In this document: in pieces, positions 27,093 to 32,693 of the stretch
Layout of the letters: every line of letters begins with the position of its first letter
How positions within the stretch are numbered: the stretch's first letter is position 1
NCBI GenBank assembly: GCA_027619595.1
Contig: JAQCHP010000048.1
Coordinates: 1 to 32,693, forward strand
From: Planctomycetota bacterium
GTDB taxonomy: Bacteria; Planctomycetota; Planctomycetia; Pirellulales; Pirellulaceae
DNA length: 32,693 bases
Reading direction: 5' to 3'
Notes under the pieces: generated by a model
Database searches by the model: none
Seen by the model: the letters and a program-made list of their open reading frames with translations, nothing else
What the model was told of the DNA's origin: nothing
Translations under genes and position numbers: made by a program

Positions 27093-27175
27093 AGGTTAAT
27101 TTCTGGAAATATGCGGGTCTTTCATTAGCCCGGAGGGCGGAAGATCCCTGCCGGTGGCGTAAGCCAACGGATAGC
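27064..27175 (+). repeat. Diverged copy of the composite intergenic repeat, direct orientation
   Basis: The segment ATTGCAAGAACGAAAAAGG (27073-27090 region) matches the ATTGCAACAACGAAAAAGG block at 30985-31011. It is followed, after extra sequence, by TAGCCCGGAGGGCG and GATCCCTGCCGGTGGCGTAAG, as in the copy ending at 31060. It is the most diverged of the copies here. Together with 27191-27210 (another CCCGGAGGGCGG core) it shows the 27039-27525 gene-free stretch to be built largely of repeat remnants; no gene is credible in it. Confidence 0.65.
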
Positions 27176-27372
27176 GGACAATCAAACCGCCAGCCCGGAG
27201 GGCGGCACATGAATCGCGTTATTCCCAGTGATAATTGAGGTCACACGCGATGTCATGGTCTGCAAGATTTTGCAAGTACTCATCCTGAAGTGTGCGTGTT
27301 TGAAGTAGTCACCAATTCGCATTGCATAGCCTTGCGTTGCCCTCCGGGCTAAAGAAATTGAGGGTTCTCTAT

Positions 27373-27392
27373 CCGGTGGCTTACGCCACCGG
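27373..27392. repeat. REP-like palindrome
   Basis: CCGGTGGCTTACGCCACCGG is a perfect 8-bp stem with a TTAC loop. Versions of the same core, in either orientation, occur at 27153-27172 (imperfect), 31047-31060 (half) and 32623-32637 (half). It resembles the extragenic palindromes common in this bacterial group. Confidence 0.8.
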
Positions 27393-27499
27393 CAGGGATG
27401 TGTCGCCCTCTGGGCTAGAGGAATGCTCCTTTTTCGTTGTTGCAATTTCAACCAAACCCCATTTTTTTGCAAAATAGATCAGCTACGGCGTTGCCCTCC
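27379..27499 (-). repeat. Composite intergenic repeat, inverted copy
   Basis: The reverse complement of this ~121-bp stretch matches 30939-31060 with one indel and fewer than ten differences by eye. It contains, in leftward order, the GGAGGGCAACGCCGTAGCTGAT block, an A/T-rich centre, GGGGTTTGGTTGAAATTGC, the AACGAAAAAGGAGCATTCC block, the TAGCCCAGAGGGCGACA block and the palindrome half. It abuts the 3' end of the spermidine-synthase-like gene. Confidence 0.85.
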
Positions 27500-27525
27500 C
27501 GGCCGTGTCACCCACCCGACAAAGA

Positions 27526-29970
27526 TTACCACTGCACAACGGCAGCGATGCTGCTGAAATCGTCTGTCCACAAGGGTCCGGCCAAATCGGCAGGAGTCGG
27601 CAAGAATGCCTCCGGCCAATCTTTGCTCCTTGTTTGCAATGTCCGATCGCGCGACACAAGTACCCAGCGACTCCCCTCGATCCCCAAGTCGTGTTGTGTA
27701 TGAGTCCGCACTGTTAACGACTGCAATGACCGTTCTGCTGCGAGCCGGTGCACAATCGGTTCCAAATTGAGGTAAATATTCGAGATGTGATACGCGACGA
27801 CGCCATCCGGCGCAAGGTGTCGTAGATAAAGATCGAGACACTCTTGTGTCAACAAATGTAAGGGGATCGCGTCACCACTAAAGGCGTCGATGGCTAACAC
27901 GTCGAATTGCTCGGAATGGCCATCCCGGAGGCTATGATCCAGTAACACGCGTGCATCGCCCAAAGAGGTCTCGACCGTCGCGCCACGCTTGCGAGCATCA
28001 TGCAGGTAGCTAAAGAATCTCGGATTGATCCCAAGCCCTTCCTGACTGTGTACCTGAACCTGGGCGCTAGATTCGGATGGTTGGCTATTCTCACCGGCGG
28101 CCGAACCGGTACCGACGATTTCAGAAAGGTCACTGGTATAGTCCTGATCCCCATCGGCAATCCGGAGCACGGACGGGTTAATTTCGTAGAACCGGACGTA
28201 ATCACCTTTCTTGGCATAGGCAGCCAACGTACCAGTTCCCAACCCAATTACTCCTATGCGAAAGGGATGGTCGGGTTGAGCAACTCGCTGAGGATGCTTT
28301 TCGATCGCGCGCCCCACGCCGCTCCGTTCGTCATAATACAAGAGTGCCTTTTCTCGTTTCGACGGCATCTGAAATTGTGTTCCGTGCAGAATGCGACCGT
28401 GATACAAAGCCACCGCCGCGAGTTCCGGATAAACTTCTGTGACGGGCACGCCCTCCGTATTCAAGATTTTTCTCGCACCTACCGTCACGACGGAAATGAC
28501 GCCGTAGAAATTTCGCTCCACACGCAATACATTCGCACGTTCACGGTATATGTGCCATCCTAGACACGCCTCTGCCAACAGCACAGCGACACCGATACAA
28601 CTCACGTAGACTTGCCCCGGGGGGCGTCGCGCGTGGTGACTCGATGGAATACTTGCGGTATGCTTGCGCGACGCACGCCGTTCCGCTCTCGTAGATCGAT
28701 CCGTTACCCCATCGGTCACATCCACCGGCCTCTTGGCGTCTTGCACCATTTCCATCCACACCAAAAGGCACGTCGCGGCGAGCCCCAAATCTAGTTCCCA
28801 GTATTGCAAGAAAATCACCGGTGCGACAATTGCTACGGCAATGCCACCCAAGGCTCCCCCTGCAGCAACCGTCAGGTAAAACAGAGTCGACCAAGATGAT
28901 CCCGGCCTGAGACGTGCCAATTCCCCATGACAACACATGCAGCAGGAAAAGCAAAGGCCCACATGAAGGGCAACTTGCCACCACATCGGCAAACTGATCG
29001 GAAGACGGCCATAAAGTGCCTCTTGCCACGACCGCGGGAAACTCTCGGGATTCACGAGAGTCAAACACAGCAATATGGACCCACCAACCGTGGCGATGAG
29101 AAAGGGAACTCTGCGATACCAAGAATCGCTTTCGAAACACAAAATGAAGCTCAGTAGGTAGGCACTTAACGGCAACACCCACATGAACGGAACGACGGCG
29201 ATGTCTTGGCACATCTGGTTGGTAATCGCTAGTAACACCACCGTCCCTACCATGGAATAGACAAACCATTTGAGCATCAGCCTACCGGTTGGCGGAGTAT
29301 CGGCAACTAACGGATTCGGCGGTAGGTCCCGACCGCTGGCACTACGTCCACCGCTCATCAGAGCCGTTTCAACCGGCCTTTGAAACAGCGCCCACACGCA
29401 GCCACTGGCGGAAATTGCCAACCCAACAAATCCCAGCGACCAATAAAAATTCTGCTGCCCCAGGTTGAGACTCGGTTCCACGACTAATGGATAACTCAAC
29501 AACGCCGTAAGCGAGCCTATGTTCGATAACGAGTACAATCGATAGTGGCTACGATTGGGGTAACGCAGTGTGAACCACGCTTGAAAAAGGGGACCGCTCG
29601 CAGATAGCAGCAGGTAAGGAAAGCCGACACTCCGCAAGAGTAGCACTAGAATTTGCCAAGTTGGATTATCGCCTGGCACCTGAGTCGGCGGACTGGGTGC
29701 GATAGGCAAGGAAATAGCCGCCAACAAGAGCAATCCCAAGTGGACGACTCCTTGCGTCTTCCGGCCCAACAGTGTGGCCGAAAGATGCGCATAGGTATAA
29801 CCGCCAAGCAGCAACGATTGAAAAAACAGCATGCATGCCGTCCAAACGGCTGGAGACGATCCGTACCACGGTAGAATTGTCTTGGCGATGAGCGGCTGTA
29901 CTTGAAACAACAAAAAGGCACTGAGGAATACAGTAACGCCAAAAACTCCCATAACGTTCTTTCCGTTCAT
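27526..29970 (-). CDS. Polytopic membrane protein fused to spermidine-synthase-like methyltransferase-fold domain
   Basis: About 814 residues. The N-terminal ~450 residues contain about ten hydrophobic segments, opening with VTVFLSAFLLFQVQPLIAKTILPWYGSSPAVWTACMLFF, split here into VTVFLSAFLLFQVQPLIAKT and the ILPWYGSSPAVWT signature seen in bacterial spermidine-synthase-like fusion proteins. A charged linker (TRAERRASRKH) precedes a Rossmann domain with the SAM-type loop IGVIGLGTGTLAAYAKKG, acidic FYEINPSV, SLGDARVLL and LAIDAFSGDAIPLHLLT, ending VWT-like LWTDDFSS. Polyamine synthase activity is unproven in this fusion family and should not be assumed. Start: ATG 29970 gives a Lys before the first membrane segment; ATG 29952 has GGAAAG upstream and is an alternative; TTG 30030 is unlikely. 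It is divergent from the small gene at 30190. Confidence 0.85.
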   Translation of the reverse strand: MNGKNVMGVFGVTVFLSAFLLFQVQPLIAKTILPWYGSSPAVWTACMLFFQSLLLGGYTYAHLSATLLGRKTQGVVHLGLLLLAAISLPIAPSPPTQVPGDNPTWQILVLLLRSVGFPYLLLSASGPLFQAWFTLRYPNRSHYRLYSLSNIGSLTALLSYPLVVEPSLNLGQQNFYWSLGFVGLAISASGCVWALFQRPVETALMSGGRSASGRDLPPNPLVADTPPTGRLMLKWFVYSMVGTVVLLAITNQMCQDIAVVPFMWVLPLSAYLLSFILCFESDSWYRRVPFLIATVGGSILLCLTLVNPESFPRSWQEALYGRLPISLPMWWQVALHVGLCFSCCMCCHGELARLRPGSSWSTLFYLTVAAGGALGGIAVAIVAPVIFLQYWELDLGLAATCLLVWMEMVQDAKRPVDVTDGVTDRSTRAERRASRKHTASIPSSHHARRPPGQVYVSCIGVAVLLAEACLGWHIYRERANVLRVERNFYGVISVVTVGARKILNTEGVPVTEVYPELAAVALYHGRILHGTQFQMPSKREKALLYYDERSGVGRAIEKHPQRVAQPDHPFRIGVIGLGTGTLAAYAKKGDYVRFYEINPSVLRIADGDQDYTSDLSEIVGTGSAAGENSQPSESSAQVQVHSQEGLGINPRFFSYLHDARKRGATVETSLGDARVLLDHSLRDGHSEQFDVLAIDAFSGDAIPLHLLTQECLDLYLRHLAPDGVVAYHISNIYLNLEPIVHRLAAERSLQSLTVRTHTQHDLGIEGSRWVLVSRDRTLQTRSKDWPEAFLPTPADLAGPLWTDDFSSIAAVVQW

Positions 29971-30144
29971 TCGCGAGAAACGAGCGACTGGTCCGTGGCG
30001 GCCAAAGCCATCTTCGCAGGCCCCCCTCAAGGTACCCTAGACGCCCCAAGTGTACCAGTTCGCTCATCGATAGCGGAATTGGGAATCCTTTGTTTCAACA
30101 CAACATCTCTTGACGTTCCATCAGCATTTCTGGTACTTGACCCG

Positions 30145-30573: not shown

Positions 30574-30582
30574 TTTAGCGAA

Positions 30583-30788
30583 ACTTCCCGCTGATCGCCG
30601 GTAGGCGAACCACTCGTTCCCAGGCTCTGCCTTGGCAGTGTCCTTGATCCCTCCATCGCGGCTAACGGAAACCGCAGGCAGAGCCTGGGAACCAGATATG
30701 GACCGTTCGAAAAAAAATGTACCTTATAACCCGCTGCGACGTGGGACATTTTTTTCCGAACGGGCCATACCGGCGATCAGCGAGAAGT
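30583..30788. repeat. Nested palindromic (foldback) element
   Basis: A ~206-bp element with three inverted-repeat pairs. The outer pair is 30583-30603 with 30768-30788 (20 of 21 positions match; core CGCTGATCGCCGGTA). Inside are 30616-30632 with 30676-30692 (17 of 17; GTTCCCAGGCTCTGCCT) and 30703-30720 with 30746-30763 (17 of 18; CCGTTCG plus an A-run plus TGT). The outer pair encloses the two inner stems side by side, so a single strand could fold into a long stem bearing two hairpin arms. No convincing target-site duplication flanks it. No coding frame in it is credible. It could be a MITE-like element or a structured RNA or terminator for the preceding gene. Confidence 0.8.
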
Positions 30789-30830
30789 GTCAAAAAAAAA
30801 AATCGCAATTCTCATAGGGGACTTTGCGTT

Positions 30831-31022
30831 GGAGCGAATTCCAACAGCCCGGAGGGCAACGCCGTAGCTGATTAATCATGCGCAAAAACGCAGTTTTGTT
30901 GAAATTGCAACAACGAGAAAGGAGCATTCCAATAGCCCGGAGGGCAACGCCGTAGCTGATTTATTTAGCGAAAAAACTGGGGTTTGGTTGAAATTGCAAC
31001 AACGAAAAAGGAGCATTCCTCT
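30831..31022 (+). repeat. Tandem copies of the composite intergenic repeat (about 90-bp period)
   Basis: Units begin with GGAGC(GA)ATTCC at 30831, 30921 and 31010, a spacing of 90 and 89 bp. Each of the first two units contains TAGCCCGGAGGGCAACGCCG or close to it, TAGCTGATT, an A/T-rich centre and TTGAAATTGCAACAACG(A/G)AAAGGAGC. The third unit switches after AGCCCAGAGGGCGACA into the palindrome half that borders the insertion sequence. The A/T-rich centres differ most between units. Confidence 0.85.
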
Positions 31023-31084
31023 AGCCCAGAGGGCGACAGATCCCTGCCGGTGGCGTAAGCCCTCGTTGTTATACACAAGTTTTT
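31023..31084 (+). repeat. Left 62-bp inverted repeat flanking the insertion sequence
   Basis: This pairs with 32599-32660 at 61 of 62 positions. The inner 24 bases (31061-31084, CCTCGTTGTTATACACAAG plus T-run) look like the insertion-sequence terminal repeat. The outer 38 bases are the same REP-like sequence found in other intergenic copies. Confidence 0.88.
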
Positions 31085-32622
31085 CTCTTGGTTTGCGTGG
31101 TATTTGGCCCGAAAGTTTGCCAACAGGCACTGATATCGTATAGTCTTTCCATTCCACGCATCGTGGTATCGGGACCAGGTTCATCATTTCGCGCTCGTTC
31201 GATGTACCCACCCAGCCTTGCGATCAGGCGAATCATCGTCCGCAACGTAGGAGGTTTTTTAGGTGGTGGCTCTTGCATTACAATTTGGTAAACCGGTTGC
31301 CATTCGTCTTTGACAAAAACACATTCGCAACTCGCATCGGGATATTCTCGACCGATGCGAGTTGTGTAGAGCGTTCGCCAAGCGACGATCAACGTTACTG
31401 CCAAACAGCGTTCGAAACGTTCGATCGTCTCAAATCTGCGGCCTTCGATACGACAGCCAGATTTCAAGGTTCGGAAAAATATTTCGATAAGCCATCGAAT
31501 ACAGTAGTATGCGATCACTAATTCGATCTCTTCCTTAGTTAAGATCGGCATGTTCGTCAAAAGAAGCCAACGGACGGGAGTTTCACCTTCAGGGGCACCG
31601 ACTTCCTCTGCTAAGACCGCATTCACCGTGGTGTTATTCAATTTTCGATCTGGTCGCGACGAACCGCGAAGGGTTACGGTGGTTGCTCGAACTTCCATTT
31701 CACACTGACGGGAAATACGAGGTTGATTTCGAGCTCTTTTATCGCACGCTAGTTTGGGCTCACGACCCCGAACGTGAATTTGCTTGCTGTAAATCCGTTC
31801 GCACGCTGCAAGTTGCTCGTATAGATAAGTTACTTCGTCCGAATCTTCAGTAACGACGCTTCTATCATAGCAACTGCGGATGATCCACTGAAAATTGTCC
31901 GGAGACTCCCGGTCGAGTTCGATGACCTCAAAGATGTCCGCCTCGCTATCGGCAACGCATACAATCTTAGTCTCCGGATGCTGCAGAGCGATCTCTTGGG
32001 CGTGTCTGTGTGTATCGAGCCAACGCACCGATTTTTTTTCTTCGATCGGCTTTTTCTTACGATCATCCGCCTTAGAAGGTCCGTGATCACGAGTCCAAAG
32101 TTCAGCAGATAGTATTCCCAATGGAGTGCCGTTAGGTGTAAATGCAATCAGCGGATAGAGAAATTCTCCGAACCGCGAGCCACCATCGAGCGGCCCCGCG
32201 CCTTCGACCTGTACCTTTGGACGAGTTAGGTCTAATTCTGTCGTGTCTTGAGCGACGATCACAACCTTTTCTTGCGCCAATCGGGCGTAAGTTGCATCAA
32301 TATGAGGCTCAAGGACATTCTCAAAGCTGACTCGTTCGTTGTCAAAAAGACGATAAGCCGCAGTAGTTTCGTTATGTCCACCATTCACGGCCGCAGGAAT
32401 GCTTTTACTCGGAGATGCTGCCATCATTGACAGCAATTCAATCAGGCCGTCATTGAGCCTCTCATCACCAATGTCTACAGTGTCCATCTCTTTACTGACC
32501 CAATCGCTCACCATCGCTATGCTCCTTCAAGCGAAAATTAAACGCTAACATCCTTGCCAGCAACAGTTTACAGATTTCGACGCTCGGCCGCATCGGCAAA
32601 AAACTTGTGTATAACAACGAGG
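31061..32622 (-). mobile_element. IS4-family (IS50/Tn5-like) insertion sequence, apparently intact
   Basis: A ~1.56-kb element bounded by inverted repeats CCTCGTTGTTATACACAAG (31061-31079) and CTTGTGTATAACAACGAGG (32604-32622) and carrying one full-length transposase gene. The transposase stop codon lies inside the left terminal repeat. The bounds given take the terminal repeat as ending where the sequence becomes the common REP-like repeat; the element could instead include the whole 62-bp repeats (31023-32660). No direct target duplication is visible at either choice of boundary. Confidence 0.85.
31069..32514 (-). CDS. IS4-family transposase
   Basis: A 481-residue DDE transposase related to Tn5/IS50 transposase (476 residues). 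The N terminus (DIGDERLNDGLIELLSMMAA ... NGGHNETTAAYRLFDNERV) matches the Tn5-type DNA-binding region. Catalytic residues are visible as Asp90 (VAQDTTELDL), Asp189 (CVADSEADIF) and Glu344, the last within a perfect Y-(2)-R-(3)-E-(6)-K signature (Tyr337, Arg340, Glu344, Lys351). The C-terminal segment RLIARLGGYIERARNDEPG also resembles Tn5. The ATG at 32514 has AAGGAGC 6-8 bases upstream. No frameshift or internal stop is seen, so the gene should be functional. Confidence 0.94.
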   Translation of the reverse strand: MVSDWVSKEMDTVDIGDERLNDGLIELLSMMAASPSKSIPAAVNGGHNETTAAYRLFDNERVSFENVLEPHIDATYARLAQEKVVIVAQDTTELDLTRPKVQVEGAGPLDGGSRFGEFLYPLIAFTPNGTPLGILSAELWTRDHGPSKADDRKKKPIEEKKSVRWLDTHRHAQEIALQHPETKIVCVADSEADIFEVIELDRESPDNFQWIIRSCYDRSVVTEDSDEVTYLYEQLAACERIYSKQIHVRGREPKLACDKRARNQPRISRQCEMEVRATTVTLRGSSRPDRKLNNTTVNAVLAEEVGAPEGETPVRWLLLTNMPILTKEEIELVIAYYCIRWLIEIFFRTLKSGCRIEGRRFETIERFERCLAVTLIVAWRTLYTTRIGREYPDASCECVFVKDEWQPVYQIVMQEPPPKKPPTLRTMIRLIARLGGYIERARNDEPGPDTTMRGMERLYDISACWQTFGPNTTQTKRKTCV

Positions 32623-32660
32623 GCTTACGCCACCGGCAGGGATCTGTCGCCCTCCGGGCT
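32599..32660 (-). repeat. Right 62-bp inverted repeat flanking the insertion sequence
   Basis: Mirror partner of 31023-31084 with one difference (CCTCCGGG here versus the complement of CCCAGAGG on the left). The outer part ends at GGGCT (32660), after which the two flanks diverge completely. Confidence 0.88.
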
Positions 32661-32693
32661 TTTGAAATTCGCCCCGACTCAGGGATTCTGATG

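Follow-up and report, generated by a model that had tools for sequence, protein, structure and literature searches.

The window, i.e., the whole stretch of DNA analysed here (32,693 nucleotides), holds a compact group of nested palindromes near its right end. The original prediction for this locus offered three readings: a MITE-like foldback element, a structured RNA, and a replication/transfer-type structure. In the present study, we asked which of these readings applies. We consider it very probable, on the basis of sequence comparisons, that the element is a decayed copy of a non-autonomous MITE, the outer arms of which are the terminal inverted repeats of a planctomycete insertion sequence (IS) group with an ISL3-like DDE transposase. 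Rather than one structure, the element combines three components: this IS-derived MITE, REP-like palindromes, and another small palindrome.

Architecture and neighbourhood of the element

Three nearly perfect inverted-repeat pairs had been described, and all were present at 30580-30791, each slightly longer than claimed. The outer pair has arms of 24 nt (92%). Inner pair 1 (30613-30632 and 30676-30695; 20 nt, 95%) is separated by 43 nt, and inner pair 2 (30697-30723 and 30743-30769; 27 nt, 89%) by 19 nt. The whole window was scanned for inverted pairs with arms of 20 nt or more, no more than 2 mismatches, and a spacer of up to 200 nt. Five pairs were obtained, three of which were those of the element, and no pair of this quality was found in any of 20 dinucleotide shuffles of the window. 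The 206 nt first reported folded at -113.2 kcal/mol as RNA (z -10.85) and at z -10.75 as DNA, with none of 200 shuffles being as stable in either case. The element carries no gene, as claimed, in that no listed open reading frame (ORF) of at least 80 aa overlaps its 212 bp. It was correctly placed behind a stop codon; however, the gap is 6 bp instead of 9 bp because the true start is at 30580. The features are summarized in Table 1.

Table 1. Features of the element and of its immediate surroundings in the window
Feature	Position	Strand	Observation
Upstream ORF, 127 aa	30190..30573	+	Precedes the element by 6 bp; unmatched in Pfam and NCBIfam
Whole element, very probably a decayed MITE, 212 bp	30580..30791	.	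Shares its ends with an autonomous IS; has related copies within and outside the own genome
Left terminal inverted repeat	30580..30603	+	Differs from the family consensus end by two changes
REP-like cargo	30613..30695	+	5' arm and 3' arm from two different palindromes
Second inner palindrome, 73 bp, TATGG...CCATA	30697..30769	.	Probable separate insertion at TA
Right terminal inverted repeat	30768..30791	-	24 bp identical to both ends of the G073 IS
IS4-family transposase	31069..32514	-	Convergent neighbour of the element; other IS family

The adjoining IS4-family transposase was considered as the mobiliser and set aside because it belongs to a different IS family. Repeats of the CCGGAGGGC type occur in both orientations at 27126-27506, 30838-31084, and 32599-32673. 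Inverted copies of 75 bp (91%) lie on either side of the IS4-family ORF, and the left copy overlaps the end of this ORF. These repeats belong to a different repeat family from the MITE. Further upstream, the C-terminal part of an 834-aa ORF (27526-30030, minus strand) weakly resembles a fused MFS/spermidine synthase (28.8 bits; cut-off, 40).

Terminal repeats and the autonomous insertion sequence

BLAST of the whole element yielded matches in 2 of 60 genomes, including its own, as if the element were almost private. This result was misleading because the interiors of the elements differ, and the spread was revealed by an end pattern (the 20-bp end, allowing 2 mismatches). The pattern was detected in 99 of the 241 genomes of the bacterial family (reversed-pattern control, 0-2 matches per genome), with 189 matches in genome G070, 38 in G244, and 37 in G073. 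Thirty of the 100 listed places among the 189 in G070 start no more than 150 bases from the first base of their contig, as if the MITE breaks the assembly. In the species-level genome collection, 47 stretches contain the exact 20-mer end, all titled as members of Planctomycetota except for two records named "bacterium isolate bin.5". Among 392 genomes across the phylum, the 20-mer with at most 1 mismatch was confined to the own genome and one place in G929; therefore, the exact end is rare outside the family. Other copies exist both in the own genome and elsewhere.

We compiled the 46 elements that were complete in the loci fetched, allowing up to 5 mismatches across the two 20-base ends; those interrupted by contig ends were excluded, and three of the 46 are IS copies (L112, L133, and L134, the last with an internal deletion). 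Exact 8-bp duplications flank 15 of the 46 elements, against 0.145% of all cross pairs, and at least six of eight flanking bases match in 33 (cross pairs, 6.1%). The remaining 13 elements, including L133 and L134, match at fewer than six bases. Among the seven offsets tried (-3 to +3), exact flanking 8-mers appeared at offset 0 only, and the 15 duplicated targets have A/T at 82 of 120 positions. The original prediction reported no target duplication, which holds for the window copy (3 of 8 flanking bases match) but not for the family.

The arms differ among copies, yet stay matched within each element. The two terminal stretches of 24 bases agree as arms at 953 of the 1104 positions compared, whereas arms with shuffled partners agree at a mean of 891 (sd 8.2; maximum, 923 in 2000 shuffles). 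Since these shuffles ignore the common descent of the copies, the agreement is as expected for the matched ends of a transposon and says nothing for an RNA function. End positions 7, 16, and 21-23 differ among copies and mostly remain paired; position 24 does not.

An autonomous element with the same ends was identified in G073. Its two ends, each the same 24 bp as the right arm in the window, are spaced 1450 bp apart and enclose an intact 418-aa transposase gene, and the whole is flanked by a perfect 8-bp target duplication. The protein matched Pfam DDE_Tnp_ISL3 (PF01610) at 53.1 bits (cut-off, 23). However, it scored 58.8 bits against the NCBIfam ISL3 whole-protein model NF033550 (cut-off, 180) and 58.2 bits against an IS256 model (cut-off, 150). 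The family name is therefore approximate, and we use "ISL3-like" only. A further full-length IS in the family (L133, genome G192) shares 79% protein identity and has flanks matching at 4 of 8 bases, and L134, a deletion derivative of the IS, matches at 1 of 8.

Searches for transposase homologues covered the own family, a class sample, and plasmids. Homologues were found in 12 of the 241 family genomes and in 42 of the 397 genomes of the class sample; tblastn of plasmids with the ISL3-like transposase gave no match. At the first 8 of 15 loci with distant homologues (L240-L247), all ends inspected are close to GA(C/G)ACTNCTCGC, and the printed sequence reads as a perfect 8-bp duplication in seven; L247 has none. 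ISL3 elements normally generate an 8-bp target duplication and typically have ends that begin with GG. The present group shares this duplication and the DDE_Tnp_ISL3 domain with the ISL3 family; in contrast, its ends start with GAC or GAG, and its transposase is under the NCBIfam ISL3 cut-off. ISL3 is among the IS families that occur in 30 or more phyla (PMC9208149).

Interiors of the elements and the two inner hairpins

The interiors of the 46 elements formed 15 clusters at the first threshold and 13-14 at looser ones, one of which is the IS itself. The other 12 to 14 groups have no detectable similarity to one another, and BLAST did not connect any of the three IS interiors with the remaining 43. 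These 43 (the IS copies were excluded) were folded against shuffles. The median z was -4.6, with 29 of 43 below -3, while flanks of about equal length gave z -0.59, with 4 of 58 below -3. Since the interiors of L110, L117, L206, and the 196-bp element of L156 are not palindromic (z near or above 0), strong folding is a tendency and not a rule.

The largest cluster, at 14 of 46 elements, contains REP-like hairpins (three elements in the own genome, six in G244, two each in G074 and G070, and one in G076), a share that is overstated because some loci were fetched with a REP-containing pattern (22 matches, spread over 9 of the 241 genomes; 2 for the reversed control). We aligned 13 of the 14 (L081 was excluded) together with C223, a partial copy. 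L081:1219-1546 in G244 is a 328-bp MITE copy with another palindrome of approximately 130 bp in its loop; the five other complete G244 copies in the set are 198-208 bp. At L008/L063 (G003:C125), a short palindrome with arms of approximately 11 bp (CCTTCTCGCTG) encloses a 23-nt stretch identical to part of the interior of the window copy. This palindrome is possibly a diverged relative without full ends.

One orthologous site is occupied by L183:3521-3814 in Rhodopirellula sp. SM50 and L206:5531-5657 in Stieleria sedimenti. Their flanks are alike at 941 and 944 of 1000 bases and the ends of the elements are nearly identical; however, the L183 element is 294 bp and that of L206 is 127 bp. To judge from this comparison, the interior has changed at a single site, a case seen once.

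The end-sequence search of the own genome (an assembly of 281 contigs) identified three further copies, four in total: C163:965-1122 (158 bp), C121:2071-2391 (321 bp), and C223 from 20464, which is interrupted by the contig end. The window copy and C223 are identical at 111 of 114 aligned bases, and 29 nt of C223 are absent from the window copy. This stretch runs from the last part of one hairpin's 3' arm through the whole of the next hairpin. Inner hairpin 1 is thus the leftover 5' arm of one palindrome paired with the 3' arm of the distal one, and its long loop of 43 nt is due to the missing 29 nt. L173, a relative from a different genus whose interior begins in the same way, also has a corresponding stretch. 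This supports our inference that the window copy lost the 29 nt and that the other copies did not gain them.

The REP-like core, GAGCCTGGGAAC, has 15 exact occurrences in the own genome, whereas the reversed control has 3. Four adjoin a RAYT gene on contig C154 (NF047646, 96.3 bits; cut-off, 80), three upstream and one downstream. Six core loci are outside both the MITEs and the RAYT locus; at four of these, the two-hairpin unit is largely present (41-46 of 48-51 aligned bases), and at the other two just 14-20 bases align. Inner hairpin 1 is a remnant of RAYT-adjacent REP-like palindromes that are also present alone in the genome, and these units presumably entered the elements through RAYT activity. 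Short palindromes around a RAYT gene that are also dispersed alone are shared with described REP/REPIN-RAYT systems (PMC3116915, PMC6006769, PMC3733652), from which the present case differs in its 15 exact cores, in the lack of a visible GTAG or CGTC tag, and in its location inside a DDE-type MITE. REPs usually exceed 100 copies per genome (PMC2817692). Since the copy number is low here and no tag was seen by eye at the foot of the printed hairpins, we use "REP-like" and not classical REP. RAYT classes whose REPs lack the usual tag exist (PMC6006769), and REPs in planctomycetes in general are already in print (PMC3733652, PMC6006769).

Inner hairpin 2 has a different history in the reading that we prefer: it is probably a later, separate insertion into the MITE. 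Its core was absent from all the other 45 elements (at most 3 mismatches), and the REP-like part joins the outer arm almost directly in L173 and C163, while a half copy of the hairpin is located at C231 in the own genome. MITEs of the IS630/Tc1 type insert at TA and duplicate it. TA is present at both ends of hairpin 2, which suggests insertion at this dinucleotide, but TA is self-complementary and a single complete copy is known. We regard it as unlikely, given the core's absence from the other elements, the junctions in L173 and C163, and the half copy, that the hairpin belonged to the original MITE. That alternative gains from there being a single complete copy and from TA being self-complementary, such that a duplication is indistinguishable from the end of a palindrome. 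The closest copy, C223, stops before the site. Matches in the 241 genomes outside the own genome (13; reversed control, 11) were rejected as relatives of hairpin 2 because they had no good inverted partner (best, 14 of 23).

Identity, proposed mechanism, and implications

The stable fold (z -10.85) and the location 6 bp past a stop codon, between convergent genes, are also what would be seen if the element were a structured non-coding RNA, such as a 3'-UTR stability or terminator element kept for its transcript fold behind the upstream gene. However, Rfam yielded no family at the gathering score (best, 26.3 bits; threshold, 150), and a promoter and terminator scan found nothing, with one terminator-like site against 1.2 expected. 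Elements with the same ends also occur in many places, often between 8-bp duplications and with dissimilar interiors. We consider this reading highly improbable, although the element may have a secondary influence on the upstream mRNA. The replication/transfer-type structure also raised in the original prediction found no support: related copies are dispersed, and target duplications often flank them.

A REPIN/BIME-type element moved solely by the RAYT single-strand transposase, outer arms included, would account for the C154 RAYT being flanked by the same palindrome cores and for the REP-like nature of the largest interior cluster. This reading is already disfavoured and has very little probability in our assessment, because the same outer arms also enclose other interiors and a DDE transposase gene, flanked by exact 8-bp duplications, and no match to the end pattern (at most 2 mismatches) lay beside any of the six solo cores in the own genome.

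The reading as a MITE-like foldback element is borne out, and three of the checks proposed for it gave positive results: other copies, arms that vary but match, and an autonomous transposase gene with the same ends. The shared IS ends and the 8-bp duplications in the family point to a decayed MITE even though the window copy itself has no duplication. Like MITEs described previously (PMC10969869), the element is short and gene-less, with dispersed copies and with terminal inverted repeats common to an autonomous IS; the target duplication is found in the family only. It differs from them in an interior unlike that of the IS and in the several dissimilar, mostly hairpin-forming interiors under one set of ends. 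QMITE2 of Coxiella (PMC10969869) and a minisatellite-bearing MITE of Porphyromonas (PMC4596501) are precedents for a MITE containing or resembling another repeat class. Each involves one repeat class, and no exchange of palindromes appears in the published accounts compared. We found no description of the element family among titles and abstract openings in the open-access literature. MITEs as a kind are already known; to the extent of this search, the family and its habit of carrying varied palindromes appear to be undescribed.

We propose the following mechanism from the ends and the duplications. The ISL3-like transposase would bind the ends of the element in trans and excise or copy it, and insertion would duplicate 8 bp of an often A/T-rich target. 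The interior, dissimilar to that of the IS, would carry smaller palindromes, in this case REP-like hairpins such as those beside the own-genome RAYT. After insertion, the window copy would have acquired two changes at the left end, retained no recognisable duplication, and lost 29 nt, leaving the arms of two hairpins to pair with each other. A 73-bp palindrome was probably inserted later. The window copy is now probably immobile because no transposase homologue at E 0.001 or better was found in the 281 contigs of its own genome.

We speculate, tentatively, that one set of planctomycete IS ends acts as a transposon "frame" in which unrelated palindromes, RAYT-linked REP-like units among them, are gained, lost, and swapped time and again. 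In this way, a double-strand DDE system would hitch-hike on a single-strand RAYT system and vice versa; at present, we consider this possible rather than likely. Palindromic cargo itself may be favoured, for example by drawing both ends together.

The present study assigned a presumed mobiliser, ends, and a target duplication to a repeat family whose ends are found in 99 of 241 genomes of a planctomycete family. If palindromic cargo is selected or repeatedly captured, these elements would constitute a natural series with fixed ends and varied hairpin interiors. Such a series could be used to probe the effects of hairpins on transposition and the interplay of two unrelated transposition systems.
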